This document shows positions 12,001-37,528 of a stretch of DNA of 37,528 nt, piece by piece; the first letter of the stretch is position 1; each line of letters opens with the position of its first letter. The notes under the pieces were generated by a model. That model had not been told where the DNA came from and searched no databases. It saw only the letters and a list, made by a program, of their open reading frames with translations. This DNA is from a virus. A program made the translations under genes and the position numbers. The stretch covers positions 1 to 37,528 of the IMG/VR virus record IMGVR_UViG_3300043438_002023; one strand, written 5' to 3'.

Positions 12001-15000
12001 AGAAGTCAAACACTGGAAACGGAGGCCGCCAAGGTGGCGTTTCAACTCGACGGGGATCAACTCGCCAAGCAGGACGATCTTTGGATGAAGGCGGAAGCCG
12101 CAGCGGGGACGCCGGACAAGGTGGCGCGATGCCTGCCGGTGTGCCTTCCGCTACTGACGGAATCACTGGCGATCCAAGCGTATCTCCAACAGAACCCGCA
12201 GCTCAAGGGGGCGATTCCCGAGATTCTGGACGCAGCGGACGCCGTGGACCTGATGACGGCGGACTATCACCTCAACGCCCAGGAGCAAACGAGCCTCGAA
12301 TCAATCTTGTCCTCACCCCGGAAAGCACTGGCCCGCTGGCTCCAAGTAGCCCACGGAGCGCGCAGGGCAGCGTAACGGGTGAATGGAAATCTCCGCTCAC
12401 TCCCGAGCAGCAGGGCGATGTCGAGTTCATCGATGCGCGTCTCAATCAGAACGGGCACCCGGGCGTTCTTCTCACAAATGGCACCGGCACCGGCAAAACG
12501 TTCTCAGGCCTTGGGGCGATCAAACAGGCGCTCGACCGTGGAGCGATGCACATCCTCGTTGTGGCACCATCCGACAAGGTGGGAAGCGATTGGAAGAACA
12601 CCGCGCAAGAGTTTTTCAACATCCAAGACGCCGCGCAGTTGGTCGATACCAAGGATAACGGCGGCACCAACCGGCTGGTGATGACCACCTACGCGAACCT
12701 GGGGCAAAACGCCAATCTAGTGAATCGCCCGTGGGATCTGATCGTGGCCGATGAGGCGCACTACCTGAGCCAGAATAAAGAGGGAAAGGACACCAACGCC
12801 CTCGACACCTTGCGAGCGCTCACATTCCACAAAAACGGGATCTTCCGCCGAGCTGAGATGCTGGAGCCGGAAGCCGCTGAGATCTCGAAGCAAATCCGGA
12901 AACTGCCATTCCGCGAGAGAATGAGCCCTATCCGCACCGCGCAGATGGAGCAGGCCGACCGGGCACTGTCCGCCGCCCGCGAGCGGATCAAGTCGCAGAT
13001 GCCAGCCAGAGAAGCCCGCCCAAAAGCCATCCTGCTATCCGCCACTCCGTTCGCCTGGCATTTCTCGCTTGATTACGCCGAGGGATACCTGTTCGACCAC
13101 GGTCCGGAGCCAACCAGTCGAGCCTACAACACTCCATCCGCCCGAGATCGCTTCTATATTGAAAACTTCGGCTACCGGATGCGGACTGGCAAGCTCACCC
13201 AACCGGATGCCGCCGCCGCGACCGCCACGGGCATTCTAGAGCGTCGGTTTGCCGAGAAGCTCATGAAGGAAAAGGCCATGTCTGGCCGTGCGCTTCAGGT
13301 CGAGCAGGATTACAGCCGTCAATTCATCCTCAGTGAGACGAAGCTTGGCGAGCAGATCGACGCCATCATCAAGGCCATCCGCGAGAATCCACGCTTCACC
13401 GTGCTATCCGATTACATCGGCCTGGGTGACTACCTCGCCCGCCGCTACCTGCTCGAAGGCATGAAAGCCCGGGAATCAGTGGACCGGATCCGCAAGCACC
13501 TCGCCATGGGCCGCAAGGTCGTCGTGTTCCACGATTACAAAAAAGGCGGGGCCGTGAATCCACTTCGGGCAGTCTTCCACAAGGGAGACGTCATTGAGCA
13601 GCGGAATCAAGAAACCGGCGAGATGGAGACGATCAACCTGCCGATGCGATTAGCAGAACTGAAACGGGCAATCCCAGGGTATGCCGCCACCGAGCGCGAG
13701 CTGGACGGACTGCTCTCCCCGATTGACCGGATTGAACGCGAATTCCCGCAAGCCCGCATCTTCAACGGTAGCGTGCCGAAAGGACAGCGCCGCGCCATCG
13801 TGGATGAGTTCAACCGCAGCGGAAGTTCGGTGAACGTCATCCTTGTGCAGCGAGCCAGCGGCAAGGAAGGAATCAGCCTGCATGATCGAGACGCCAAGCA
13901 TCAGCGCGTGTTCATCGATATTGGACTGGCAAACCGTCCAACCGACGCCATCCAGGGCGAAGGCCGCATCTACCGCCACGGCGTGCGCAGCAATGCGATT
14001 GTCGAATACCTCAGCACCGGGACCGACTTCGAGCGGCAGACGTTTGCGGAAACCATCGCCAAGCGCTCCAGCACGGCGGAAAACCTCGCCATGGGTGAAC
14101 GCGCCCGCTCACTCCTGCAATCGTTCGCCAATGGCTATAACGAAGCGGAGGCCATCGATCCGAACGACAACCAAGGCACCGGAGGGAAAGAGATGGACCG
14201 CCAGATTGAGGAAGGCAGTTCCTACAAGACTGCCGTCGCGCTCTTCTACACGAACCAGAAGAAAACCAGCCGCAACAAGAGCAGCGAGGGCTCCGACTAC
14301 TTCGCCACACCGGAGCCGCTTGGCTTCAAAATGGTGGAATGGGCGGACATCCAGCCCGGCGAGAAGGTTCTTGAGCCATCCGCTGGCCACGGTGCGATTG
14401 CCCGCTTCTTCCCAGACAGCACGAACCGCCACGGCATCGAGCCATCCAGCGAGCTCGCCAGCCGTCTTGCCTTGAACGCAACGGACATCACGATTCACCG
14501 CCAGCGGTTTGAAGACTACAACGTGATGAACAAGTTCAACGCGGTGGTCATGAATCCGCCGTTTGGCACCGCGGGCAAGACCGCGATGGATCACCTCATC
14601 AAAGCCTTGGGTCATCTCCGCAACGGAGGCCGGGTTGTCGCGCTCATCCCCGAGGGATCATCAATGGAGAAGCGGTTCGACAAGTGGTATGAATCCGACG
14701 AGGCCAAGAACTACTATGTCCGCGCCGAAATCAAACTGCCGACCAGCACCTTCGAGCGTGCTGGAACTGGGGTAAGCACCCGCGTTGTCATCATCGACAA
14801 GATGGTCGCGCGGAAGGGTGACGAGCAAAAAAACCTTGAAAACACCCGCATCGACCTCACTCGTCACGAGACGCTGCAGGAGTTCATCAATGAATTGGAA
14901 TTCATCACCGTTCCACCGCGCCCCGAGGTTGCGCCAGTCGCAGCCGAGGAAGCCGAAGCCGAGCAAGCCGCAAACCTCGTCACCGGAGGCCGCGATTTCA

Positions 15001-18000
15001 TTCTTCCTTCCACCATCCCGCAACCAGAGGCGGAAACCACATTTTCGACGGCGGAATTCAACCACAGCAAGACCGGAGCACCGCTCTTCGTGGCCAAGAT
15101 CGAGCGCAGGCTGTCAAAAGACGAATACGCCCGCGTTGCGGCATCGGCCAAGGCATTCGGTGGCTACTATTCGAGCTACAACAAGGAAGGCGCGATTCCA
15201 GGCTTCCACTTCAAGAGCGCAGAGGCCCGCGACGTTTTTATCGGTGGTGCGTCCGGTGAGTCGCCGCTCGGATCGTCACCCACCGCGCTGTTCAGCTCGC
15301 CAACGCCAGTAACCAGCGAACAGCTTGGCACAGTGCTTCTTGACAAGATTGGCGAGGAGGCGTTACGTGTGGAGCAACCCAAGGCGAAATATGAAGACAA
15401 GCGCCAGCAACTATTCGACTTCGCGCAAAGCATCATCGAAGGAGATCCGGAATCGGGACAAGATACTGGAAACGATGCCGCCAGTGGAGACGTGGCTGGT
15501 GAACGGATGCTACTCGGACGACTCGGAGACGCTTCCATCATCCGCCAAAGACTCGCCAGAGACATCCAGACGGATCTACAGGTAAGGTTCATCGGAGATA
15601 CTATCGGGTCGCCAGAAGATCTTGCCGTAAAGGCGCAAGCGTTGCGCAATCCACGTTTCGAGACGTTCTATGTGCTCGCAGCCAAACACCGGACGGCCCG
15701 CGCCAAGAATGGAGCGGGATACCAGATCCTTGATGCCATGGCCATCACATCCCGAGTTCCAACATCCGCCGCTGTTTTTGTTGATGGGAAAAACATGGAA
15801 GACGGAATGAAGGATCACCTAGATTTTCTTCAAAGGGTCAATGCCACCCACTATTTCCTGCTCCACAACCACCCGAGCGGCGATCCAAGCCCGTCATCAG
15901 CAGATTTGCGAATGACCATGCTACACGCAAAGGAAATGGAAAAACAAGGTATCAAGCTGGTTGATCATATTGTCATCAACCATGAACCGTTTGCCTCCAT
16001 CGACGCTTACGGGGTGATCAATTCCAACAGCATCCCTGCATCATCCCTGCGTGAAGTCGGCACCGAATACGATCCGTATCGGTGGCCGAGCAAATTCATC
16101 GATGGAGTTAAAGACATCGGCATGGATGGAAACTCCCCCGACCAGATTGCCAGCATCGCCCGAGACATCGAGGCGGACCGCGCCAACCCGGATCATGTTC
16201 TTGGATTCATCGTCAACGCCAGAGGGCGGATTGTCGCTACTTTCACCGGCACGCAAGACCAGGTGTTCACCATCGGAAAAGATGCTCTGGTGGATTACAC
16301 CCGAGATCAGGGAGGAGCGCGGTTGATGCTCCATGCCAAAGCCGCAGACAGGCTTGCTGCCGAAAGGATGATCAACAGCTTCCATGGGCTGAATGTGCGG
16401 AACCTTCTCACGGACATTGTGGTGGACTTCAAGACTGCAAGTGGCCAAACACATTACATCTCGGGAGTGGAATCCGGTTTATTTGTTCCACCTCCCCAAT
16501 TCTACGGAGAAGAAAACAAATCAGCAGGAATGCGCGTGCAAGAGGGAAACCAACCCGACCTCTTCGCCGCCGCAACCGCGCCAGACGCCACACAGCGACT
16601 CGGCACCGTCAAAGTCGGCACCAAGAACGCGCTCGGGGCTTACCGTGCGCTCACAGCCAAGCGAGACGCCGGGAAGGCACTCACGGGCGAGGAAGAGCAA
16701 ACGCTCCTGGATGCCGAGCAGGCCCTTGGGCAGAAGCTGGCATTTGATATGGACGCGCTGAGAAGCACAGCACCCGTAACGGAGACACCTGCCCCCACCG
16801 CGCCCGCCGCAGTCTTCGGCCAGAACCGTCAAGCAGGCCAAGACGAGATGTCCCGCGCCGGGGAGATCGACAGGAGCGGGCAGATCAGCCTGCTTTCAAG
16901 CCCTACGCCCGCGCAAGATGCCGACTACCTCGCCGCTGTGGAGTCCGGCGACATGGAGACGGCGCAGCGGATGGTGGATGAGGCTGCGAAGAAGGCGGGG
17001 TATAACATGAGCCACCGCCAAAGGTCTCCTGACGTGAAAAAGACTGGGGACGTTCTGTTGTTTGTGGACGACACCACATCCAACACTTCCTATGGATCAC
17101 ACGACTTTGTTGTTAAGGGTCTCTCGGAAATCCCTGATTATGTAAAAACTTTTGCGTTTGATTATTACGGGGACGAAGGACAAACCGAACCGGAGGACAT
17201 CCTAGAAAGCGCACAAGCGTGGGATGATAGACAATTTGTTTCCGATTTATGGCAAAAGTATGGCGATACGTTCCTTGACGAAGGAATCGTTGGGTTCAAA
17301 ACCCCGGATGGTGCGGTGGTATTCGACCGCGCTACTGCGCTTGCAAATGGTCAAATCAAGTCCGCCGATCCCGTCACCCGTGACGCGGACGGAAACGTGA
17401 TCCCGCTTTCCCAGCGGTTCAACCCGGCCAAGGATTCCATTCTCTTCTCCTCCCCCACCCCGGAAACCATCGACTGGAAGAAATTCCCGCCCGTCTTCAA
17501 GCTGGTCTATGCAGCCATCCTCGAAGGGCAATCCGTTGCACAAATCGCCAAAAAGCTCCGCATCACCGAGAAGGCTGTCACCAATATCTCGACTCAGCTT
17601 AGCACCCGCGTGCAGGCGCTCGATGAAGCGGCAGACGGCAAGCTGGTTCCAAAGATGAACGACGGACTACTTGAGCGCGGACGCCCCGAGCGGGCCATGT
17701 CCGTCAGCTCGCCAGAAGTCGCCCGGATTCTGCAGATTCGCCAAGACAATGGAGATCCGGAGGTGATTGCCAACGCAGAAACCTACGCCAACGCCAAGCG
17801 GATGATCGCCGCCGACTATCAGGGGACCATCGAGCGCATTACCAACCGCCGCGCCAATGGTGAAGACCTCACCTTGGACGAAGTGGCTGCCGCACAAATG
17901 ATCTTGCTCGGCAAGGTCGGCAAAAAGCGGTCGCAGATGACCCCAGAAGAAAAGGTGCAGCTTGGATGGCTCGCAATGGACTGGGTGGAACAAGGCACCG

Positions 18001-21000
18001 AGGATGCTCGTCGCCTTCAGATCCGCCGCGACGTGACCCACAGCCCCGCCGAACGTGCAGCCCTCTACTTTGCCAAGGAACTCTACACCCCGCAGGACAA
18101 AGCCACCGTGGAAGCGCTGAAAAAGGCGAAAGGTCGCAAAGCCAAGGAGGAGGTGATGAAACGGTTCATGGAGCGCTCCGAGGGATTGAAAAGCCGACTC
18201 AAGGAGCGCGGAATCGACCTCGAAGCCTCTCTCGAAGAGTTCCGCCGGCAGCAGGATGAAAAGCAGGCCATGGAGGAATCCGTGAAGCAGGCGCATGATC
18301 GCCTCACGAACGGGTATCAAGACGAAGTGAGCAGCCTGCAAGACCAGCTTGCTAAGGCAAACGAGGCGACCGCCGCCGCGCAAGCCATGGGGCTTGCCAG
18401 TAAAGAACAGATTGCCAAAATGGAGGCCGACGCCGCAGCAATGGCGGAGAAGCTGAAAAAGGCCCGCGCCGACCTCAGCAAGGCCCGCATGTTGGAACCT
18501 GGACTTGTCCTGAGAACCGCACTCCTCAACCTCACCGACGCCCAAAAGGCAGCAATGGAAACCCTCCTGAACGGTGGCACCATTGAAAACGCCTTGGCTG
18601 TCGGAGGCATGACACAGGAGGCCCTCAAGAAACTTTACATCAACTTTGGCAACGTCTTGAAAAAAGCCCGCCTTGAAGCGCAGGCATTGGCCAAGCAACG
18701 GATGCTGGAAATGCCGCCCGTGCTCATGTCATCCTCCATGGAGTCTGACGAACTCCGCATGGTGGGATACGTGCCATGGGGTGAGTTGGAAGAGCGCAAA
18801 GCCCCGATCACGCCCGAGCAGGTGAAGGTCAAACCAAAGAAGCAGCCCAAGGCAAAGCCAGCGGAACCCGTTACCCTCACGCCCGAGCAGCAAGAGGCCA
18901 TCGACGCCGCGTTCGAGCGATTCAAAAACGCGGATCCTGCCACCTGGACCACGTTGTTCGAAACGGAATCCAAGACGCTTGCACCGCTCATCGGGCAAGT
19001 CGGTTTCGAGGAGTTCAAGGGACGCCTCTTGCAACCGTGGAAAGACCGCTGGCAAACAGAAATGGACGGTATTGCCAATCCCGCCGCGCGAATCACCTTC
19101 GAGGAGTGGATTGCCAAGCCATCGACCAAGGAGACGGCTAATCGCGAGCGCGATTTGTTCCCGCAGCCGATCAACGAAACGACCGGAACCTTTGACACCA
19201 CCGCGCCAAACCGCGAAGGCAGCCTATTCCCCGCTCCGATCAACGAGACCACTGGAACATGGAACGACACCCGGCCTTACACCTCGCAGGGTGAACTCAT
19301 CCGCGAGGAAATCAGCACGACTACCGGACTACTGGATTTCAATGATCCGCTTTCCGTCCGTAACGCACTCCGCGAGATTTCCACCGGCCGCAGTTCCACC
19401 ATGGACAGGATCATGGAATTCTGGCGTGCATCCATCCTTTCCGGGCCGCAAACCGCCATCGTCAACACGATGTCCAACTTTGCCTTTGGAGGATTCAACA
19501 TGGGTCCGCGTCGGGTGGTAGAAGCCGGAGTAAACTCGATGCTCAACTTGGCCGGCATCAAGTCAAACGAATCGGCAGATTTTGGCGAGTTGGTCGTCAT
19601 GGCCAAACACTTGAGGGGAGCCGCCAAGCTTGCCGGGTTAAAAATGTTGCAATCATGGCGTGAGGAATCCGCCAACTTCAAAGCCTATGCCTTGGCCTCC
19701 GAGAACCAACTGAACTTTGGCGGCAAGGATTGGGAATCGTTTGAACCCGCGCTTCCTGGCAAACTGGGAACTTTCATGCGGGCAATCAGTTTCCGCCACA
19801 TGCAGGCTGCCGACGAGTTCATGAAGTTCTTCTTCGGTCAGGTAGAAGCTGCAGCGCAGGCACACCGCATCGCCAAATCAGAGGGACTTAAGGGCAAGGA
19901 CTATCAAGCCCGCCTTGACGACCTCATTGAGCGCAAGGGATCGGAAGCATGGCAGAAAACCTTCGACATCATGCAGCGAAACACATTCCAAGAGGAAATG
20001 GTCCCGCTAGGCGAAAACACCGCCGCCATCCGCATCTTTGACACCATCGCCATGAAAGCAAAAAGCGCCCGCCGGATGCCATACATCGGTAGGCCTATCA
20101 CCTTCTTCCTGCCCTTCATCAACACCCCGACCAATATCGCCAAACAAGCGGTGGAAATGTCGCCGCTTGGCGGGATGCTGGCTCTCATCGACGGATCGCG
20201 CGCCCTCAAACGCCGACTCTCTGCGGGAAAGCTCAATGCCGACGGTATGCGGATTTCCAAGGAGGAAGCAAAAATGATGGCCGATGAACTCTACGACAAA
20301 GAGCGGTTCGTCAAAGACATGACCAACCAGGTAATCGCGTGGGGACTCTACTTTGCCATCTCGGCAATGGTAGATGGTGACGATGACGACGAGCTACCAC
20401 TGATCACCGGAACGATGGCCTACACCATCACCAAGCGTGGCGAGCGCGACGTTGCAGAGCGGGTCATGCCGCCTCAAAGTATTCGAATTCCAGGCACCAA
20501 CACCTTCATGTCCTATTCCCGCATGGACCCGTTTGCTACCATCATGGCAGGCATGGTGGACATGACTCGTTCACTGAATCGGGAAGGAGGAATGAACTCC
20601 AAAGTCGCCACAGATTTCCTTGTTCACACCAAGAACGCCATGAAGGACAAAACCTTCCTCCAGGGAGTTTCAAACATGATCAATGCGCTCGAAGATCCAT
20701 CCCGCGTCATGGAACGGCTTTCCGCTGGCATCCTCACAGGATTTGTTCCTAACCTGATCCGCCAGCCCATCAGGGAATCAGACATGATGAAGCGGGATGT
20801 GAGCCCACGAGAAAGCGATGGTCTAGCCATGTCGATCGCCAAGCGAATTGGATACTCTATCGTCCCGGCATCCGCTCCGCTTAAGATCGACGTCTGGGGC
20901 CGAGAACTCCCCGCAAACCACGGTGAAATGATTGGCGGGCACCCGGTAGCCAATGCCATTTTCCGCACGCTTGATCCCACCAATTTGACAGTGGGAGCCA

Positions 21001-21332
21001 AAATCGACCCGCTGGACCTGTATATTTTCACATGGAACAACGAGGCCCAGGACACCGACAAGATCAGCATCACGCCGATTGAGGACTTCGTGACAGGCAC
21101 GGTAAACGGCAAAAGCACCAAGTTTCCCCTCACGGTGGCAGAGCAGACAGAGGCCAATCGACGAGTGGGGAGGCAGGCGTATGAATTCCTCATGGCACAA
21201 GGACTTGACCATCGATCTACCAGCAAGCAGGGAGCGGAGCTCATTACCGATGCCTTCCGCTCGATGCAGCGCACCGAAAGGGAGCGGATCCGCAACGAGA
21301 AGATCAACGCAGGCCAGCCACCGCTGAAATAA
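3036..21332 (+). CDS. Giant polyvalent protein (about 6,100 residues, multi-enzyme)
   Basis: One uninterrupted frame of 6,098 codons between terminase and portal. It belongs to the class of phage and conjugative-element 'polyvalent proteins' that join many effector domains and are thought to enter the recipient cell with the DNA. Domains with their own entries are: hydrophobic region, degenerate zincin, intact zincin, ADP-ribosyltransferase, SF2 helicase, N6 methylase, short methylase-associated module, RadC-like JAB, small DMETAQ module, helix-turn-helix, coiled coil and membrane-associated C-terminus. Residues 1-120 are an Arg/Gln/Glu/Ala coiled coil. Residues 1016-1440 are helical, then a Pro-rich linker. 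Residues 2650-2877 and much of 1560-2060 I do not recognise. LFSSP-type linkers recur at residues 2062, 2398, 2650, 2878, 4085, 4619 and 4803. The ATG at 3051 fits the leader-motif spacing better than 3036. Codon use is patchy, as expected of a mosaic. Confidence 0.92.
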   Translation: MAVCGMASRFRSLYDPAAQNALDQVPTAPEPSVDIARAQTLARSSSNPAAQRAGRQMLDEAARQQERSREASQREAERQARKADYEARRAQKEQEKQVAADQARSVREAAAAGAKIETDVATGKRAVATHSDGAVKFETGPVGEPFVQQTAEAAMSSIPGMGGFMSLTRPANQQSLGQTQEVAQTYRDDRGGQVTAALPTKTDPKTGAITSTVQDPVTGRPTAVTLGTDQAIQAKAAKDAELEQRRQEIALRKNRVDQDKMRFTPQWEPVKREFDEAGEALNAFTDPEKIKFIRDPKTGKMAKRDPNTGLPSREYVDPNELAKWTQDKTALEARHERAKAAHDKLSPFAENLNRNETEIEEARLKYVEEKIRHDSGIKEDAPLSSFTTEGKAKALEELSTAKPTTVKLKQQDGSEADVPMLPLKTQDGQSIHIPMVDEAGKKLTKEQALDQYDKKGTHVKLETDQDDSDTVSPFTRKLVNMDIEAARVRSAMSTGKVNPVAGEKRFQLLAELKNQTIEQAKAEATARLEAQGREIAAKFIGTGVKSQQLAGAKSGGYAEFKNELNEMGAWITGNENIREKTAQRFRLSGHNLDRAITMAEGDTKKSLTAMKEQFDKAGINPEERARIIKDAAMAQAWTEKDADNLRQLSTGDLVINPGRVFGQKDALIAEINASDTNPAAKKDAIARLDAMRKAMAETLENDTYYADSGFAEFVQAKAEKGESDKVAMLDEWMAQQKNRNGIFKAVDAVKVGLQTGTIGIAKTAVGGAAGISALVGADGMAGSLGENAQFLGEASNQIGAAGKTRGLTGGYGITTDLTNTVTQMAPMLVGGWAAGGLKGASQVATRGASVYGWAAAQGYESKLSDALDMAAAKKGSALTSDEIAGVLGQTDTQVAGFLNAAQTVILAAAFPKGAEAGALGKVSASMTVSDFLRRGGMRAVKDGTLRQEIKTIGKNIFADGKDEALEEFSNQVLDGMISVAALDKELQLGTLLEDSFKALALGGGVGGVMPQVYAGQTKQQQHEQLAATLQNQMLGQPDRSMVSTALATLDPQTKAPTEAEIKQARQIVQPSVAALKEIEERRAAYKAAIKAKDYKGAAAIDQEINDKFTQAQTDAALAAADAVLLTRELAGIEEQAKEAVGQANAALYQAKATGDKQGIAAAEANLEQVTKDAPNVPLARAAVKLATGQDISALTDSELRAVGYKPGESGAPVQMTTSELKAQGLAKPLVRMDTADGSAVILDEAIDQVIQTSTLAALRIQLGEQAAMEAAQARYDSAQQATTPPTNEQDPQGTPGQEVTPENPQPAPADANAPLPAGGNGTPAPVSGGTGATSAQASVNLAEMEAGKYEAARSINPNMPDAASTVKVAINRNQPVSVSMAKAAGVNPEGYTRQGALMVPSVRDATSTQNQGDAMRNPNDSDSRDATSGEKDVRVMRNPEKSGSRDALPAQPEPQSAAQSAIDRAKARFPGLTGGFQIVEGGDGTTGGAQASGATITILTGDLERELSGYAPEKQDSRVDAVIDEEVIHLAQFEAARRSGESVEDFYGALWGEFTPAQRKAAASTYQATFDKQEDWQKAAETVRILIQQRADGRVTELTKAFNKNIPARLVEILKAAVEFLKSSIENGEISQRVQDAITGIEAILAEYSTDKTTDKKQAATPVNQATARETQDKTTDTATTEESFAVDPAQDLRDATETIRQAVVAALASNPALEGTDLGFDLEDIAFDMAEALATVPADQRKGMVDAAIAAWLEDNIAEKPAKATGTADQKARRKAWRQAAQEKLNAAARAILNSGVHEAFSAVFDKGRITPMPNILGLIRKRRADGKTLTQREIDIWQNESEWNGALKKSNYTGGGQNPLARAMIDLIMARQGEGQSPNTMADALKRVGTGKLKDMDSASDMWEQLAKELRAVTSGKSEDKAGYNPMDDPNYEPTDAEIAEWEAKQAATAQDQDQQPYVTLGDAYGYAIEAFGPDAPITQKIGTISEHADRFYRDDMPSVRAVISAEFARHANGQAIVEAPKPEFEGPAAAFYRFFITTPAEKMREMLASLPVADVDSALFSSPSPGNIRLDLISSFSKPPASYTYETSNERRESILSIARKHGLRLVNPADQGTAIRRFQEVYGVTVTFYEGGSPKNTGFVSGNNIFVNSERNDIPTSWTLTHELIHVGQKDLTAGTPEISGLIGSLLSDTELKAVEDRLLSEGYKRHELATEIPAFLIADAVTDGEVFGFDSFARGAELKASLVDWFDSLQSLNPELLKTATDDELTRLNSSPTQPGFSFDQTTDAGDASQKGFNFGTLPPGPNAKFVENTQKAYDHATTDKARENIAKDSAAREGMKNRGKVQNVPQGMMDFGMSGSFGTKDQPSLFDAGPNGRPSIQTTDGGTLEAPGQISLFSSPAWHGTPHKVDKFRLAKIGTGEGALAFGWGLYFAGLKKVAEDYQKKLADGSLLTRDGQIFDDRKELKNMNVRSVLNRNDGDIDAAIARAKQVIESIPETQGAEYAANDIQRLERLKEEGGLRKSTGYLYTVTLDVNDEDLLDWDKPLSEQSEKVQAAIKSQMPQRSWEIMKSRSGQEYYERYWNAKSAAMEGDIRSASLAINSLGIPGIRYLDGNSRADGQGSYNYVIFDESLIKITEENGKPVETAALFSSPSNQRSLDFGFSGSLGTRDQEGFDFSAKPVTGPAKMPRRLPDTAFTRTIDRMGPDRGELRKFDKEAYEAKYDRISKEEQAKDAANDAKIDAWLATIPENKPISFEVGNPAEDFSGFNVVTKNASDPARPWRATWWRRYPRPEWTDAQEEEYEALFKKTRTGMMGVSDEEYRAVHARLNELADIQRLPGKTRMIPTGHQEFKTRREALDDAVSMTEGNPEPIIGALFSSPTRGQGSFDFGTTGSFNTRNQPGFDFGTPQQPTPQDTAKPAESPQAETPSQSTRPRSAVQNLWDWASDASASIDPRAPQGNLFDTTPKTTDTQSNDIPSSTNLEPDRQKSNTGNGGRQGGVSTRRGSTRQAGRSLDEGGSRSGDAGQGGAMPAGVPSATDGITGDPSVSPTEPAAQGGDSRDSGRSGRRGPDDGGLSPQRPGANEPRINLVLTPESTGPLAPSSPRSAQGSVTGEWKSPLTPEQQGDVEFIDARLNQNGHPGVLLTNGTGTGKTFSGLGAIKQALDRGAMHILVVAPSDKVGSDWKNTAQEFFNIQDAAQLVDTKDNGGTNRLVMTTYANLGQNANLVNRPWDLIVADEAHYLSQNKEGKDTNALDTLRALTFHKNGIFRRAEMLEPEAAEISKQIRKLPFRERMSPIRTAQMEQADRALSAARERIKSQMPAREARPKAILLSATPFAWHFSLDYAEGYLFDHGPEPTSRAYNTPSARDRFYIENFGYRMRTGKLTQPDAAAATATGILERRFAEKLMKEKAMSGRALQVEQDYSRQFILSETKLGEQIDAIIKAIRENPRFTVLSDYIGLGDYLARRYLLEGMKARESVDRIRKHLAMGRKVVVFHDYKKGGAVNPLRAVFHKGDVIEQRNQETGEMETINLPMRLAELKRAIPGYAATERELDGLLSPIDRIEREFPQARIFNGSVPKGQRRAIVDEFNRSGSSVNVILVQRASGKEGISLHDRDAKHQRVFIDIGLANRPTDAIQGEGRIYRHGVRSNAIVEYLSTGTDFERQTFAETIAKRSSTAENLAMGERARSLLQSFANGYNEAEAIDPNDNQGTGGKEMDRQIEEGSSYKTAVALFYTNQKKTSRNKSSEGSDYFATPEPLGFKMVEWADIQPGEKVLEPSAGHGAIARFFPDSTNRHGIEPSSELASRLALNATDITIHRQRFEDYNVMNKFNAVVMNPPFGTAGKTAMDHLIKALGHLRNGGRVVALIPEGSSMEKRFDKWYESDEAKNYYVRAEIKLPTSTFERAGTGVSTRVVIIDKMVARKGDEQKNLENTRIDLTRHETLQEFINELEFITVPPRPEVAPVAAEEAEAEQAANLVTGGRDFILPSTIPQPEAETTFSTAEFNHSKTGAPLFVAKIERRLSKDEYARVAASAKAFGGYYSSYNKEGAIPGFHFKSAEARDVFIGGASGESPLGSSPTALFSSPTPVTSEQLGTVLLDKIGEEALRVEQPKAKYEDKRQQLFDFAQSIIEGDPESGQDTGNDAASGDVAGERMLLGRLGDASIIRQRLARDIQTDLQVRFIGDTIGSPEDLAVKAQALRNPRFETFYVLAAKHRTARAKNGAGYQILDAMAITSRVPTSAAVFVDGKNMEDGMKDHLDFLQRVNATHYFLLHNHPSGDPSPSSADLRMTMLHAKEMEKQGIKLVDHIVINHEPFASIDAYGVINSNSIPASSLREVGTEYDPYRWPSKFIDGVKDIGMDGNSPDQIASIARDIEADRANPDHVLGFIVNARGRIVATFTGTQDQVFTIGKDALVDYTRDQGGARLMLHAKAADRLAAERMINSFHGLNVRNLLTDIVVDFKTASGQTHYISGVESGLFVPPPQFYGEENKSAGMRVQEGNQPDLFAAATAPDATQRLGTVKVGTKNALGAYRALTAKRDAGKALTGEEEQTLLDAEQALGQKLAFDMDALRSTAPVTETPAPTAPAAVFGQNRQAGQDEMSRAGEIDRSGQISLLSSPTPAQDADYLAAVESGDMETAQRMVDEAAKKAGYNMSHRQRSPDVKKTGDVLLFVDDTTSNTSYGSHDFVVKGLSEIPDYVKTFAFDYYGDEGQTEPEDILESAQAWDDRQFVSDLWQKYGDTFLDEGIVGFKTPDGAVVFDRATALANGQIKSADPVTRDADGNVIPLSQRFNPAKDSILFSSPTPETIDWKKFPPVFKLVYAAILEGQSVAQIAKKLRITEKAVTNISTQLSTRVQALDEAADGKLVPKMNDGLLERGRPERAMSVSSPEVARILQIRQDNGDPEVIANAETYANAKRMIAADYQGTIERITNRRANGEDLTLDEVAAAQMILLGKVGKKRSQMTPEEKVQLGWLAMDWVEQGTEDARRLQIRRDVTHSPAERAALYFAKELYTPQDKATVEALKKAKGRKAKEEVMKRFMERSEGLKSRLKERGIDLEASLEEFRRQQDEKQAMEESVKQAHDRLTNGYQDEVSSLQDQLAKANEATAAAQAMGLASKEQIAKMEADAAAMAEKLKKARADLSKARMLEPGLVLRTALLNLTDAQKAAMETLLNGGTIENALAVGGMTQEALKKLYINFGNVLKKARLEAQALAKQRMLEMPPVLMSSSMESDELRMVGYVPWGELEERKAPITPEQVKVKPKKQPKAKPAEPVTLTPEQQEAIDAAFERFKNADPATWTTLFETESKTLAPLIGQVGFEEFKGRLLQPWKDRWQTEMDGIANPAARITFEEWIAKPSTKETANRERDLFPQPINETTGTFDTTAPNREGSLFPAPINETTGTWNDTRPYTSQGELIREEISTTTGLLDFNDPLSVRNALREISTGRSSTMDRIMEFWRASILSGPQTAIVNTMSNFAFGGFNMGPRRVVEAGVNSMLNLAGIKSNESADFGELVVMAKHLRGAAKLAGLKMLQSWREESANFKAYALASENQLNFGGKDWESFEPALPGKLGTFMRAISFRHMQAADEFMKFFFGQVEAAAQAHRIAKSEGLKGKDYQARLDDLIERKGSEAWQKTFDIMQRNTFQEEMVPLGENTAAIRIFDTIAMKAKSARRMPYIGRPITFFLPFINTPTNIAKQAVEMSPLGGMLALIDGSRALKRRLSAGKLNADGMRISKEEAKMMADELYDKERFVKDMTNQVIAWGLYFAISAMVDGDDDDELPLITGTMAYTITKRGERDVAERVMPPQSIRIPGTNTFMSYSRMDPFATIMAGMVDMTRSLNREGGMNSKVATDFLVHTKNAMKDKTFLQGVSNMINALEDPSRVMERLSAGILTGFVPNLIRQPIRESDMMKRDVSPRESDGLAMSIAKRIGYSIVPASAPLKIDVWGRELPANHGEMIGGHPVANAIFRTLDPTNLTVGAKIDPLDLYIFTWNNEAQDTDKISITPIEDFVTGTVNGKSTKFPLTVAEQTEANRRVGRQAYEFLMAQGLDHRSTSKQGAELITDAFRSMQRTERERIRNEKINAGQPPLK
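5280..6080 (+). other. Hydrophobic, Gly/Ala-rich region of the giant protein
   Basis: Residues about 749-1015 contain several Gly- and Ala-rich hydrophobic stretches (for example IGIAKTAVGGAAGISALVG and TQMAPMLVGGWAAGG). They are followed by DEALEEFSNQVLDGM, an acidic helix with an 'EE..NQ' core that I associate with large ejected phage proteins. This composition suits membrane insertion or channel formation during DNA ejection. That role is inferred, not shown. Confidence 0.45.
7241..7376 (+). repeat. 63-bp tandem repeat, about 2.2 units, in frame
   Basis: TCGCGATGCGACTTC occurs at 7241-7255 and 7304-7318. ATGCGAAATCC occurs at 7278-7288 and 7341-7351. A third, variant start (TCGTGATGCG) lies at 7367. 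The period is exactly 63 bases (21 codons), so the frame is kept and the protein repeats RDAT...MRNP...SRDA. Unit 2 ends in a perfect 7-bp hairpin with a GAAA loop (7348-7365). It lies in a Pro-rich linker between domains. Confidence 0.75.
7405..7830 (+). other. Degenerate zincin-like domain of the giant protein
   Basis: Residues about 1457-1598. The helix DEEVIHLAQFEAA (1524 on) sits where a zinc metallopeptidase HExxH would be, but the first His is Glu (EEVIH, His1529). The surrounding pattern is a beta-strand (SGATITILTGDL), the helix, then ESVEDFYGALWGEFT. It resembles the metallopeptidase modules of polyvalent proteins. With one zinc ligand missing it is probably catalytically dead or binds metal differently. 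Confidence 0.4.
9250..9840 (+). other. Zincin metallopeptidase domain of the giant protein
   Basis: Residues about 2072-2268. An intact zinc site LTHELIHVGQ (His2166, Glu2167, His2170) follows a beta-strand and loop (NTGFVSGNNIFVNSER). The later helix ELATEIPAFLIAD could give the third ligand. It would be a peptidase acting on host proteins or on the polyprotein itself. LFSSP linkers at 2062 and 2398 bracket it. Confidence 0.7.
10236..10970 (+). other. ADP-ribosyltransferase domain of the giant protein
   Basis: Residues about 2401-2645. The start AWHGTPHKVDKF, followed by GALAFGWGLYFA and, late in the domain, LGIPGIRYLDG and YNYVIFDE, matches the ART module seen in polyvalent proteins (the 'HGT' strand binds NAD, and the 'GLYFA' turn follows). 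It would transfer ADP-ribose from NAD to a host target. The middle (about 10345-10610) is clearly richer in A and T than the flanks, suggesting exchange by recombination. Confidence 0.75.
11962..12375 (+). CDS. Nested gene in +1 frame inside the giant gene, unknown function
   Basis: 137 residues from ATG 11962 to TAA 12373-12375, read in the +1 frame of the giant gene. The product reads as an ordinary soluble helical protein: MTFLAAPIWNQIARS, then acidic helices such as IPEILDAADAVDLMT, ending RKALARWLQVAHG. Over the same bases the main frame gives only a disordered Gly/Ser/Arg/Pro linker. By my count 97 of 137 sense codons in the nested frame end in G or C (71%) against 61 of 137 (45%) in the main frame, so the nested frame has the codon bias of the neighbouring domains. 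No ribosome binding site is evident. It may be expressed separately, or be an older gene trapped when flanking genes fused. I recognise no family. Confidence 0.6.
   Translation: MTFLAAPIWNQIARSQTLETEAAKVAFQLDGDQLAKQDDLWMKAEAAAGTPDKVARCLPVCLPLLTESLAIQAYLQQNPQLKGAIPEILDAADAVDLMTADYHLNAQEQTSLESILSSPRKALARWLQVAHGARRAA
12399..14150 (+). other. SF2 helicase domain of the giant protein
   Basis: Residues about 3122-3705. Walker A NGTGTGKT (Lys3154), DEAH box VADEAH (Asp3239-His3242), motif III LLSATPF (about 3333-3339), and a C-terminal lobe with FNGSVPKGQRR, ASGKEGISLHD and motif VI IQGEGRIYRHG. This is a DEAH Snf2/SSL2-like helicase. Directly fused to the methylase that follows, it forms the pair known from DarB-type antirestriction proteins. 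Confidence 0.88.
14290..14830 (+). other. N6-adenine DNA methylase domain of the giant protein
   Basis: Residues about 3752-3932. Motif I VLEPSAGHGAI (3778 on) binds S-adenosylmethionine, and motif IV VMNPPFG (NPPF at 3840) is the catalytic loop of N6-adenine methylases. DYFATPEPLGFKMVEWA just before motif I is the usual lead-in. It could mark incoming phage DNA against host restriction. Confidence 0.88.
14990..15245 (+). other. Short methylase-associated module of the giant protein
   Basis: Residues about 3985-4070: TTFSTAEFNHSKTGAPLF, then IERRLSKDEYARVAASAKAF, then GGYYSSYNKEGAIPGFHFKS. This small alpha/beta unit often follows helicase-methylase fusions in mobile-element proteins. Its role is unknown; DNA contact is a guess. 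Confidence 0.4.
15330..16500 (+). other. RadC-like JAB metallo-domain of the giant protein
   Basis: Residues about 4099-4488. LHNHPSGDPSPSSADLRM carries the JAMM zinc site (His4277, His4279, Asp4290), and the strand VDHIVINHE follows. The family includes deubiquitinase-type peptidases and bacterial RadC. A second alpha/beta part (about 4330-4488) follows. Possible peptidase or DNA-associated role. Confidence 0.8.
16902..17445 (+). other. Small module after QISLL/SSP linker, giant protein
   Basis: Residues about 4623-4803. It starts with DADYLAAVESGDMETAQRMVDEAAKKAGY, a helical hairpin often seen at the front of enzyme modules in polyvalent proteins. An alpha/beta part with an AT-rich stretch (about 17030-17350) follows. 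It ends with the seventh LFSSP linker. The enzyme type is not recognised. Confidence 0.4.
17470..17610 (+). other. Helix-turn-helix in the giant protein
   Basis: Residues about 4812-4860. VYAAILEGQSVAQIAKKLRITEKAVTNISTQL (written here in part) has the spacing of a sigma-region-4 or LuxR-type helix-turn-helix, with GQSVAQIAKKL as the first helix and turn and TEKAVTNI as the recognition helix. It could tether the protein to DNA. Confidence 0.5.
18130..18490 (+). other. Coiled-coil region of the giant protein
   Basis: Residues about 5033-5152 are charged heptad-like helices (LKSRLKERGIDLEASLEEF, then SLQDQLAKANEATAAAQAMG). They probably mediate oligomerisation or act as a spacer before the C-terminal region. 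Confidence 0.6.
19400..21332 (+). other. Membrane-associated C-terminal region of the giant protein
   Basis: Residues about 5455-6098. MEFWRASILSGPQTAIVNTM, then FFLPFINTPTNIAKQ (about 5690-5704), then the hydrophobic segment VIAWGLYFAISAMV (about 5766-5779) before an acidic run DGDDDDEL. The order 'WR..ILSGP...N..SN' then 'PF..TPTNIAK' recurs at the C-termini of polyvalent phage proteins, where it probably contacts the virion or the membrane during ejection. Confidence 0.55.
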
Positions 21333-34128: not shown

Positions 34129-34710
34129 ATGTCTTCAGAGCTGCACAGATTCGGGTTTTACGGTGACGGCGACGAGGATCGTTGGAAAGCCGCTGTTGAG
34201 AATTTGCTTCGAGCGCTGATTACCAATCCTCACCTGCGCATCGGAGATCAAAATTCACAAATCGAGTTTCCTTCACAAGCCGCGCCATCGTCACCAAAAG
34301 AAAATGCCGCAGGATCGGCACCTAGCGCTTTTTTTCGCGTTTTTGTCGATGAGGACAAGCGCAAGCTGCAAGGCGGGCAGGTGAGCGGTGGCACAGGAAA
34401 CATTGCGGTGCCGGACATCGATCTTGCGACGGTAGGCAGTGAGCCTGCGGACGGGACATTGCGCTGGCTTCGGATTACTTTTAACGGGTCGGCCACGGAT
34501 GGCTGGTTGAACGCTGGCGGGAACGTGACAGCAGTCACCCCACAAAGCGGAACCAGCCTGCCAGCAAACACGTTGCCCACTGCGGCGAGCCCTTCAGGCA
34601 AACACTACCACCTCCTTCTTGGAAGCTGGTCTGGTGACGTTTTCCTTCCATCGCAGCCAGGCAACATTGCGGTCGGTTTTTGCAGTGATTACACCATTTC
34701 ACGAGGATGA
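34129..34710 (+). CDS. Hypothetical tail-region protein
   Basis: 193 residues. The ATG at 34129 is preferred to a GTG at 34078 inside the previous gene. A short helical N-terminus (RWKAAVENLLRALIT) is followed by a Gly-, Ser- and Thr-rich beta part ending SGDVFLPSQPGNIAVGF. This is the usual shape of a small tail or fibre protein. The TGA overlaps the next ATG as ATGA, so the next protein is coupled. Confidence 0.45.
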   Translation: MSSELHRFGFYGDGDEDRWKAAVENLLRALITNPHLRIGDQNSQIEFPSQAAPSSPKENAAGSAPSAFFRVFVDEDKRKLQGGQVSGGTGNIAVPDIDLATVGSEPADGTLRWLRITFNGSATDGWLNAGGNVTAVTPQSGTSLPANTLPTAASPSGKHYHLLLGSWSGDVFLPSQPGNIAVGFCSDYTISRG

Positions 34711-37121
34711 GCATTAACTTCAGGCGGGTGAGCGTGGCGGACTACAATCGGGAGCGGCCCTGTTGCTGTCCGCAGCCGAATTGTATAGCTCCAGGGTTAG
34801 AGACACAGTTTCGGGACGCGGCAGTCGCTTTGCCAGGCTTTGGCTACTTCCGAACGCCAGACCCGCTGCCTCCCGTGGATGCTCTGGTCCCTGTTTTTCG
34901 GACGTTGACCGAGACCACGACCAGCGGACAAAACAGCACCATCACCTCCTCATCTCGCTACCGGTCCGATGGCGAGACGCAAGGCACTGCGAGCCTGTCC
35001 ATTTCGCAGGTATGGACGGCGACCGCACAGCGCACGGTGGAATGGGGCAAGCTGCGTCACGAGTGGCCTGCCAGCGATCCAGTGGGGCTTTACGGATCAT
35101 GCCCACCGCTCTCCGGCGTGGCATCACCCGCAAAACCCAGTGCACTCAGTGCGGTGGAAGGACTGGGAGCAGGTGTGGAAGCCAGAGAAGGACTCACCGG
35201 ATGGATTCTTTCTTGGGCGGACGTCCGCCCGCTAGACCCGACGTTCGAGGCCAGCGAAGACGACCCAGGGCCGCGCTACCTTGGAGGCTACGTGATAGAT
35301 GGCGACGCGCTCGGTGGAACCTTTTTGACCGCTACGAGCGTCCAGATTTTTCTGGCACCGGACGACAACTCATGCAGGCAATTTTCAGTAGCTAGTGATG
35401 CAGGCTGGAGTGCTCCATTCTATTTCCACGGGGGATCAAATTCATGCTGTCCCACTGTCGATCCAAACCTCTCGAATGGCTCATTTCCGGATTGGAGCCC
35501 ATGGTATTCCAGCGATGGTCTAGCACACATCGACGGGTCCACATTCGTTTACGAAATGTCCCACGGTGAAGAATCGGATTCGGCATCGGGCAAAATGGCG
35601 TGCGATGATTTCCCGGCGGTCGTCGGCGGGCTGGTTTTAGGGCAGACGGATGGCCCGTGGATCACCACCTCGGTGGATAAACTCACGGAAGATGGATGGG
35701 ACATGGTATCGGTGTGGCCGCATGACGCAGAAGAAGTAACCGACGTGGAGGCAGAGGATGTCGAGATGGAGGACGTGTCCGCCACCGACGTGGTGATGGG
35801 GGCGGGCGGTGAAATTGTCTCAGCGGCATTGACGACTGGCAGCCTGAGAACCGGAAATTTGGTCACAGGCTCGCTTGGTCCCGCAAAAACATTATCTGGT
35901 GGCCGCCTGAGAATGGGGACATTGAGCGGCGGAGGCCTGAGCGGTGGCACGTTGTCTGGGGGGACTTTAAGCGGTGGCACGTTATCCGGCGGCAAGATCT
36001 CTGGCACCACAGCCAGCGGATCCACGGCTGAAAACGTATCGCTGGACGGCACGACCGAAGAGACCGAAGGGACACCCGAGGAGGAGGAGACCAGTCCCGG
36101 CTGGTATGCATCAGGCTCCTCAGTCTCAAAACGCCAAACGCAAGGTTTCCGCCGGACGCTGGGGCACGACATGAATCAAGGTCTCGCTCGGCTCGGCTCG
36201 GAGTTCAGCCGAGCTCAAGCAATAGCATCCGGCTACGGTGCGTTAGAGCGGTGGGGCAAAACTTACGCGATGCCAGGTGCCACGGTGCCCGGTGCGTTTG
36301 CAAAAGGCACATTTCCAGTATGGGGAGCGTCGGGCGTGGCAATTACCATGCTTTTCCGTCAAATGAGGTATCGGTGGAGCGTTTCGACAGAGATTCCTGG
36401 CCTATACAAAATCGTTTGGAGCATCGGGGAGTTCTCGGAACAGCACTTGGCGTGGCGTTCGGCATACCACGCTTGGGCGGTCGCAAAATACGACTTCTTG
36501 CACCAGCCTGCCGGAGGCGAACCATTGCCAGACCCCGGCGCGGCACCAGCAGCTCCAGGGGGAGGATTTGCACCCGTCGTCGTGACAGCCGATCTCGAAT
36601 GGGAATGGACACCCGCCCAAGGCGAGCGCGGTCCGGAGTCGGTAGGTGTCTGCGATCCGACTTACGCTGCCCGCGTCCCACAGCCACCCGTGTTACCGGA
36701 CGATCCGACACCCGAAGAGTCGGAGGCATACGCCGAGGCCCTCGAAGCATACAACGAAGCCCTCGAAGCACGGCGGGAGGCGTCCACGCGGCAGAGTGCT
36801 TGGTATGCGGTGACGCCGGGAGGATTTTTCCGGGATGTCATTTACCCACCGCTTCCCGCGCCTCTTCCGACCGACCCGCCGCCGACCAGCGCCCAAGTGG
36901 CGATTCATGCGCGGCAGACCGCAGCGCACACGGCTTTGAAAGCCGAGCACGACGCGATTCCACGGAGGTTCCGGCAAGTGTGCGACGTGCGTTATGTTTG
37001 CAATCCGAACGGCCCCGCTGGCGAGATCGTCACCTACGATCTGGGATTTCCTCAAACTGAGATCCCGCCGCTTGACCCGGCAAACGAAAATCCAAGACTC
37101 TGGACAGCATGGTGGACGTGA
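34707..37121 (+). CDS. Large tail protein with pentapeptide repeats
   Basis: 804 residues. A Cys cluster (RPCCCPQPNC, residues 18-26) and a later SNSCCP may bind metal or form disulfides. The middle (residues about 342-451, 35730-36060) is a pentapeptide repeat, typically xLSGG, which would fold as a right-handed beta-helix. The C-terminal third has helical, Glu/Ala-rich stretches (SEAYAEALEAYNEALEARREA) and Pro-rich linkers. No enzyme motif is seen. It overlaps both the previous and the next gene. Size and place suit a tail or receptor-binding protein; a DNA-mimic role of the pentapeptide part is less likely. Confidence 0.55.
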   Translation: MSINFRRVSVADYNRERPCCCPQPNCIAPGLETQFRDAAVALPGFGYFRTPDPLPPVDALVPVFRTLTETTTSGQNSTITSSSRYRSDGETQGTASLSISQVWTATAQRTVEWGKLRHEWPASDPVGLYGSCPPLSGVASPAKPSALSAVEGLGAGVEAREGLTGWILSWADVRPLDPTFEASEDDPGPRYLGGYVIDGDALGGTFLTATSVQIFLAPDDNSCRQFSVASDAGWSAPFYFHGGSNSCCPTVDPNLSNGSFPDWSPWYSSDGLAHIDGSTFVYEMSHGEESDSASGKMACDDFPAVVGGLVLGQTDGPWITTSVDKLTEDGWDMVSVWPHDAEEVTDVEAEDVEMEDVSATDVVMGAGGEIVSAALTTGSLRTGNLVTGSLGPAKTLSGGRLRMGTLSGGGLSGGTLSGGTLSGGTLSGGKISGTTASGSTAENVSLDGTTEETEGTPEEEETSPGWYASGSSVSKRQTQGFRRTLGHDMNQGLARLGSEFSRAQAIASGYGALERWGKTYAMPGATVPGAFAKGTFPVWGASGVAITMLFRQMRYRWSVSTEIPGLYKIVWSIGEFSEQHLAWRSAYHAWAVAKYDFLHQPAGGEPLPDPGAAPAAPGGGFAPVVVTADLEWEWTPAQGERGPESVGVCDPTYAARVPQPPVLPDDPTPEESEAYAEALEAYNEALEARREASTRQSAWYAVTPGGFFRDVIYPPLPAPLPTDPPPTSAQVAIHARQTAAHTALKAEHDAIPRRFRQVCDVRYVCNPNGPAGEIVTYDLGFPQTEIPPLDPANENPRLWTAWWT
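35730..36060 (+). repeat. Pentapeptide-repeat region (TLSGG type)
   Basis: About 22 successive five-residue units with a hydrophobic residue every fifth position. They begin VEAED, VEMED, VSATD, VVMGA and become TLSGG, GLSGG, TLSGG. The DNA shows near-copies of GGTGGCACGTT... spaced by 15 or 30 bases at about 35940-35990. The acidic first units grading into Gly/Ser-rich ones look like growth by duplication. Confidence 0.75.
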
Positions 37122-37357
37122 TCGATATCAGGTATTTCAAGGACGGCGAGGCGCGGATCCTAAAGCTCGACCGCTATCGGAATTTCATTTCCGACGAGGT
37201 GGATGGCGGATTTGCAGTGCCGCTGCCTGCCGTGATCCCCGAACAGGCCACCCGCGCGGCAAGAGTCATCGTTCGTCCCGTTGGTTCATCCGTGATTGGC
37301 GTAACGTTCGAGGGAATCAGGAAGATCGCTGATTGCCCTAACTGCCCGAAACCTTAA
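37109..37357 (+). CDS. Small hypothetical protein
   Basis: 82 residues. The ATG at 37109 lies inside the end of the tail gene (13-base overlap). DIRYFKDGEARILKLDRYR and a Pro/Ile/Val-rich second half suggest a small beta protein. It ends DCPNCPKP, a CxxC that could bind zinc. No family is recognised. Its last 20 bases overlap the end of the convergent integrase gene. Confidence 0.5.
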   Translation: MVDVIDIRYFKDGEARILKLDRYRNFISDEVDGGFAVPLPAVIPEQATRAARVIVRPVGSSVIGVTFEGIRKIADCPNCPKP

Positions 37358-37528
37358 GCTTCTGAGCGTTTGCCAAGCTTTGTTGATCGTGGATGTGCGA
37401 GTAAGTCGCCAGCAACAATTTCCCGCCGTCCTTGTGGCCGATCCACTTTGCCACCGTCGGGATGTCCACCCCGCAACCAATCGCGTATGATGCGAAGAAG
37501 TGCCGTAGATCGTGGATACGGACATGAG
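37338..37528 (-). CDS. int: Tyrosine recombinase (integrase), C-terminal end only
   Basis: Read leftwards from the window edge, the last 62 residues are visible, ending in TAG at 37338-37340. HDLRHFFASYA carries the His-x-x-Arg box, WIGHKDGGKLLLATYSHI carries the GH box and the active-site Tyr (TYSHI), and the tail QSLANAQKLKVSGS is ordinary. This is the catalytic C-terminus of the lambda-type family, which inserts and excises temperate phage DNA. The catalytic Tyr is present, so the end is intact. It was found only by reading the frame missed by the short - strand ORF at 37286-37525. Its start lies beyond the window. It makes this a temperate phage or prophage. Confidence 0.88.
   Translation of the reverse strand, partial: HVRIHDLRHFFASYAIGCGVDIPTVAKWIGHKDGGKLLLATYSHIHDQQSLANAQKLKVSGS

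Follow-up and report, generated by a model that had tools for sequence, protein, structure and literature searches.

A predicted Gly-core pentapeptide beta-helix in a probable tail protein of an IMG/VR virus record

Known pentapeptide-repeat beta-helices are right-handed and four-sided, and a beta-helix rises by about 4.8 Å per coil. A review (PMC8145042) requires at least eight contiguous repeats of a pentapeptide repeat protein, and the 2019 consensus given there draws the i-2 residue from A/C/S/V/T/L/I and places L or F at the centre. Published phage pentapeptide genes vary in length in multiples of 15 bases: phages L and ST64T differ by 15 bp, a single repeat, in an early gene (PMC8022706), a pentapeptide gene of Vibrio phage 24 varies by 75 bp (PMC5690320), and a Caulobacter phage pentapeptide gene by 375 bp (PMC11053796); the available text of these articles does not state that any is a tail gene. 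In the portions of the literature consulted we found no published description of pentapeptide repeats inside a phage tail protein, which is no proof of absence.

We analyzed a window of 37,528 bases (the whole stretch of DNA under study) from IMG/VR virus record IMGVR_UViG_3300043438_002023, an uncultured phage in which an 804-residue open reading frame (ORF) carries a run of five-residue repeats. The genes that give this ORF its context are as follows.

319: small terminase, profile match
865: terminase, weak profile match
3036-21332, plus strand: 6098-aa ORF, between the terminase matches and the portal
22748: portal, profile match
27995: endolysin, profile match
28639: scaffold, weak profile match
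29713: putative major capsid gene, assigned by position and conservation and named by no profile
34707..37121, plus strand: 804-aa ORF with repeats, putative tail (virion) protein, the tail role taken from gene order

The first-pass annotation had called the 804-residue product a tail protein. Its gene position after the capsid gene agrees with this name, which no profile supplies: Pfam and PHROG scans at E up to 1 returned zero matches and recognized no domain of any kind. We regard it as probably a tail protein, judging by its position downstream of the putative capsid gene. The ATG of the ORF overlaps the stop of the preceding gene (ATGA). Among the post-capsid genes scanned (32438, 33389, 34135, 34707, and 37109, with 31360 and 31990 left out), none scored below E 0.1 against Pfam or PHROGs. 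The tail-like neighbor 32438 found no relative when searched alone, its family of six yielded no profile match and no credible PDB identity, and ten further proteins from related loci matched no named PHROG.

The five-residue rhythm is pronounced. Within residues 342-452 (35730-36062) the same residue recurs five positions on in 44 cases and ten positions on in 43, and every other lag from 1 to 12 gives 3-15 identities. No shuffle out of 20,000 attained the lag-5 value. This bears out the earlier description of a periodic stretch in an 804-residue protein. With a strict unit defined as small-x-aliphatic-x-x, the protein holds 12 units, five at residues 368-392 and seven at 399-433. The longest strict run, seven, was reached by 0 of 5000 whole-protein shuffles (four reached six) and by 1 of 20,000 shuffles of residues 366-450. 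Gly occupies i-2 in 11 of the 12 strict units and Leu the center in ten. Allowing Ala at the center adds three units, for 15, and L396 makes a sixteenth if Lys is accepted at i-2. Four more come from the acidic block only under a rule that admits Ala or Met as the center residue (VEAED, VEMED, VSATD, VVMGA), and the register of these relaxed units is shifted by one residue relative to the block that follows. The likely reading is therefore graded, with 12 strict units, 15-16 likely, and 20 possible. Of the "about 22 units" first proposed, the periodic array stands, whereas 22 is its length divided by five and so an upper count. The region can be divided as follows.

35730..35801, plus strand: acidic block, residues 342-365 (10 D/E, 0 K/R), with lag-5 identity; no more than a possible part of the beta-helix
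35802..36056, plus strand: Gly/Ser/Thr/Leu-rich pentapeptide solenoid, residues 366-450 (3 D/E, 5 K/R), a predicted beta-helix of about four coils
35808..35882, plus strand: repeat block 1, residues 368-392, five strict units with four Gly and one Ala at i-2
35883..35900, plus strand: one-residue register slip, residues 393-398, a likely bulge between blocks, seen in the L390-L396 spacing (Leu390 to Leu396, six residues)
35901..36050, plus strand: repeat block 2, residues 399-448, seven strict units, ten with Ala center, with regular model strands
36057..36101, plus strand: second acidic flank, residues 451-465 (7 D/E, 0 K/R), set by charge count

A cruder measure, Fourier power of the hydrophobic residues at period 5, agrees in direction with the lag-5 periodicity: it was 1.82 over residues 370-440 (shuffle mean 0.18, highest 1.94 in 10,000), and the best 60-residue window reached 1.87, the highest among 1000 whole-protein shuffles being 1.98. 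Fourier power at this period was not significant in the acidic block (p 0.18). Lag-5 identity is significant in this part (residues 342-365), and its hydrophobic residues alone showed no significant periodicity (p 0.28).

We modeled residues 331-474 by single-sequence AlphaFold (mean pLDDT 60.5, pTM 0.40; pLDDT 69-71 over 401-440). Over residues 395-447 the model has strands of two to four residues at five-residue spacing, and their pattern has a 20-residue period, the one expected of coils made of four units; at this modest confidence (pLDDT 60.5), the regular part is compatible with a quadrilateral helix of four repeats per coil. The fragment model shows regular strands over this stretch and not an unfolded linker. 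In block 1 the strands (370-372 and 379-382) are irregularly spaced, and the acidic part, 342-365, forms a two-residue bridge alone, strands of three or more residues being absent. A full-length model had zero strands in the repeat region at a pLDDT of 35.8, a confidence too low to count.

Foldseek searches of the fragment model against the PDB and viral libraries returned no match at E up to 0.001. Ranks 2-20 of the PDB search (19 of the top 20) were pentapeptide or designed-solenoid chains; among the six top-ranked rows of the viral library, five had a probability of 0.96-1.00 and four have names that refer to pentapeptide repeats. Of the 92 chains that VIA-align 2 aligned, 23 had a Z of at least 8, on a scale where, for repeats, values under about 13 can reflect a common arrangement. 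The best was MfpA (2bm6; Z 9.5, 81 residues, 2.3 Å, over residues 366-448); others included designed 5dn0 (Z 7.9), HetL (7.5), QnrB1 (7.2), and NP275 (7.0), together with SV2 luminal-domain entries at up to Z 9.1. Sequence comparison by phmmer with residues 366-449 matched designed 4yfo at a whole-sequence E of 1.8e-9, which sums several overlapping stretches (best single stretch, E 0.0015), and natural NP275-NP276 at E 1.8e-6. With the whole 804-aa protein as query, 4yfo was again best (E 9.7e-5). The acidic block alone gave no sequence match, a weak test at 27 residues, and a composition control, one Ser/Gly-rich stretch of the related contig L007, found a single unrelated chain (E 1.1). We consider a beta-helix for residues 366-450 likely. 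The pentapeptide beta-helix of the first-pass annotation is supported for these residues by the fragment fold, the MfpA superposition, and phmmer, most firmly over 395-447, and finds no such support in the acidic part, 342-365.

The whole protein had no Pfam pentapeptide match at E up to 1, nor had two fragments at E up to 10, a scan in which HMMER filters drop most matches above about 0.1. Against the eight-repeat criterion of PMC8145042, the array has seven contiguous strict units, or ten with Ala center, and one of the 12 strict units fits the consensus given there at both i-2 and center. The array shares a five-residue period, an aliphatic center, a small i-2 residue, and predicted four-unit coils with PF00805-type proteins (MfpA, QnrB1, HetL, NP275/NP276); it differs from them in being short, broken by a slip, and set inside a large putative virion protein, and in its i-2 Gly and missing Pfam match. 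We call it a Gly-core variant of pentapeptide repeats because of that missing match and because Gly, found at i-2 in 11 of 12 strict units, lies outside the consensus as given in the available text. It probably folds like a pentapeptide repeat protein, and its membership of the family is putative. The best sequence matches, covering most of the block at whole-sequence E 1.8e-9 to 7e-8, are the designed solenoids beta1 and 6beta1 (4yc5, 4yei, 4yfo, and the loop variant 5dqa); these are stand-alone proteins, and their Ala and Asn are often Gly and Thr in the window array.

The first-pass annotation had also noted repeats visible in the DNA, which is true as a consequence of the peptide and shows no excess beyond it. 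Tandem Repeats Finder (minimum score 40) reported zero arrays at the pentapeptide region, and a DNA repeat search there found one 25-nt pair (76%) and one 12-nt pair. Nucleotide identity at lag 15 over residues 368-450 was 0.402, against 0.450 (sd 0.023) expected from the peptide and the phage's codon usage. Identical LSGGT units differ in their Leu, Ser, and Gly codons, and silent positions across the array vary as freely as the phage's codon usage permits. On the repeat finder, the repeat pairs, and the lag-15 test together we reject a DNA-level tandem repeat or recent slippage. In the same lag-15 test, four of six arrays from other phages (L028, L022, L018, and L038) had a clear excess, and L039 (p 0.08) and L010 (p 0.89) had none. 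Because its DNA repeats no more than the peptide forces, the array looks old, the peptide pattern having outlived any duplication that made it. Its silent sites are varied where four of six other arrays show DNA excess, so the pattern appears to have been kept without visible recent duplication; selection presumably maintains the five-residue pattern, and the lack of DNA-level memory argues against frequent slippage or rapid length change in stocks.

We searched for relatives of the phage and of the 804-aa protein. The post-capsid genes 31360 and 32438 are common to the capsid-related loci L002, L004, L005, L006, and L007; gene 33389 has matches in L002, L004, and L007 only, and contig L003 stops after the capsid gene. 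Beyond the shared post-capsid genes, the capsid-related contigs diverge strongly in gene content, and among these loci relatives of 34135 and of the 804-aa gene occur in L004 only. Gene 34135 matches its L004 relative at E 2.8e-15. For the 804-aa protein, L004 has a weak positional relative of 442 aa without repeats; the two proteins share a pair of short, collinear matches, each with a pairwise E of about 0.02, and the remaining listed matches have E of 0.5 or more. A fast-evolving gene after the capsid gene would suit a tail or receptor-binding part.

None of these searches found an orthologue of the 804-aa protein with repeats. Viral contigs gave one pattern match and no relative, and tblastn against annotated phages led to no orthologue, whether from the whole protein or, with the BLAST low-complexity filter on, from the repeat alone. 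Relatives were found in none of six capsid-related records (0/3 and 0/3). The short segment shared with L004, used as probe, gave 22 pattern matches and 0 confirmed; neighbor gene 34135 gave 71 pattern matches, confirmed in L004's own contig alone, and one relative among five records, again that of L004. Among the ORFs of at least 80 aa in L002-L007, 396 in all, no strict run of six or more units occurs, the longest noted being five, in a 92-aa minus-strand frame of L005. The capsid protein's sole genome match was one contig of an Acidobacteriales MAG (L007), and among 299 genomes of that MAG's class it matched that genome only. In this contig, two genes with long serine runs (L007:14427-15296 and 15296-16159) occupy the place of variable tail genes.

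Patterns modeled on the array were sought in the viral collection. The tight pattern GGTLSGGTLSGG found three stretches, of which just one, L010, is read in frame by an ORF of at least 60 aa; a looser pattern found 33, of which three with in-frame stops were dropped, leaving 30 open frames that are pattern frames of putative coding status. Nine of the 30 share a single 95-aa frame, and in two pairs both members lie on the same contig. Seven, picked by eye as likely proteins, were run against Pfam and PHROGs: three matched clear tail families (L028, L010, and L032) and four matched families of unknown function only. L028 has Prophage_tail (E 6.4e-27), fn3, and minor tail protein PHROGs, and L010 and L032 have tail fibre PHROGs. 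Only two have long arrays: L028, with 37 consecutive units, and L039, with 10 units and no tail family. L010 and L032 never exceed three strict units in a row, a length that shuffles often reach. The L028 repeats match the same solenoids as the window array (E 4.5e-8), and the L010 stretch matches QnrB1 (E 6.2e-4). A long Gly-rich array inside a clear tail protein elsewhere is thus one case, L028. Its units are likewise of the GG-T/A-I-T/S type, in a protein with Prophage_tail and fn3; it differs from the window array in being more than three times longer, in having Ile and not Leu at the center, and in its DNA-level excess, and our comparison showed no homology between the two proteins.

Several observations accompany this survey. 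The L028 gene (L028:746-4111, minus strand) encodes a tail endopeptidase protein with 37 contiguous Gly-rich pentapeptides; its C-terminal part, which matches a tail protein PHROG, resembles what we take to be an S74-type chaperone domain, one that Pfam did not report at E 0.01. GGTIx arrays at L018:1448-2026, L022:5733-6791, and L038:10712-11161 have PHROGs 7964, 20532, and 20449, all of unknown function, as their best matches; in the GGTIxGG units counted, x is W, R, E, or M only, and the DNA repeats, 15 bases long with one variable position, are far more alike than the peptide requires. The Gly-rich 95-aa pentapeptide frame, identical over the part shown, is present in L011, L012, L017, L019, L020, L024, L034, L035, and L041; the sample numbers differ, and the frame may represent mobile DNA, contaminating DNA, or a widespread element.

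A folded rod has to be weighed against a flexible Gly/Ser-rich linker between two domains, whose rhythm would be left from low-complexity growth with no helix. The Gly-rich composition, the acidic flanks on both sides, the absence of strands from the region in the full-length model, and the moderate pLDDT and irregular block 1 of the fragment are all compatible with a linker. A linker, however, needs no Leu or Ile every five residues while the other residues change (RTGNL, VTGSL, LRMGT); the model strands are regular over 395-447; the missing DNA-level repeat memory means that the array is not a fresh slippage product, and the one Ser/Gly-rich control failed to match solenoids. We regard a linker as unlikely, though worth keeping in view.

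Two other readings accept a beta-helical structure. Phage fibres are often trimers, and the Gly-rich five-residue rungs of three chains could together build a beta-helical stalk, either intertwined or side by side, of the sort seen in many trimeric phage fibres; the long array of similar Gly-rich repeats in the L028 tail protein might suggest this. Against such a stem, the strand period is 20 residues, the best structural matches are single-chain coils, and no domain of any kind was recognized in the 804-aa protein; we judge it quite improbable. The structural matches to MfpA, the best, and to QnrB1 raise the further idea of a DNA mimic acting, like Qnr or MfpA, on gyrase or host DNA-binding proteins. 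Those mimics have a strongly acidic helix surface, whereas the helix at 366-450 carries 3 D/E and 5 K/R and only its flanks are acidic, a charge count on which we reject DNA mimicry by the helix; it is also only about four coils long and forms part of a protein of 804 residues whose gene follows that of the capsid, and a shared fold shows no function. A mimic of this kind is very hard to credit.

With moderate confidence, we favor the reading that residues 366-450 are a short pentapeptide-type beta-helix acting as a small rigid spacer in a probable tail protein. The periodicity belongs to the protein level, and both sequence and model resemble pentapeptide solenoids; we infer the fold itself, the placement in the tail, the end at which the protein is anchored, and the function as a spacer. 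About 15-16 units would form four coils, with mostly Gly at the inward i-2 site and Leu or Ile at the center, giving a rod of roughly 2 nm, as four coils of about 4.8 Å imply. This helix, neutral to slightly basic, would sit mid-protein between two acidic, probably flexible segments that may serve as solvated joints, and as a stiff spacer or stem it would fix the distance between the N-terminal and C-terminal parts.

If so, a short modular rigid rod would be added to the known parts of phage tails, and its length, adjustable in five-residue steps, would make it an easily dialed spacer. Pfam pentapeptide models miss Gly-core arrays both here and in L028, and phage tail proteins may therefore hold more rods of this kind than annotation shows. 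A bolder version, which we consider rather unlikely, holds that Gly-core pentapeptide solenoids recur in phage tail proteins unnamed by Pfam, with Gly replacing the Ala-type i-2 residue; here the acidic block would continue the helix in a shifted register (centers A349, M354, A359, and M364), so that the rod would have about 20 units, two bulges of one residue each, and a gradient of charge along its length. The array is genuine yet fairly ordinary, since a longer run of the same kind exists in the L028 tail protein, and it is a modest departure from known pentapeptide solenoids.

The record has other features of note. The single 6098-aa ORF (window 3036-21332, plus strand) takes up nearly half of it and has RadC, ResIII, and DEAD helicase matches above Pfam cut-offs, with ART-PolyVal, Helicase_C, and methyltransferase matches below them; this is the domain make-up of phage polyvalent proteins as described in the available text of PMC5512222. 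Within the 804-aa ORF, at window 36726-36770 (plus strand), lies a 21-base tandem repeat of 2.1 copies (87% matches) that encodes EAYAEALEAYNEALEA, a segment that is helical and the most confident part of the full-length model (pLDDT 77-88). At 37338-37526 on the minus strand, a frame open at the window end (HVRIHDLRHFFASYA...) resembles what we take to be the C-terminal end of a tyrosine recombinase, and the record may therefore be an integrated or temperate phage cut at that edge.
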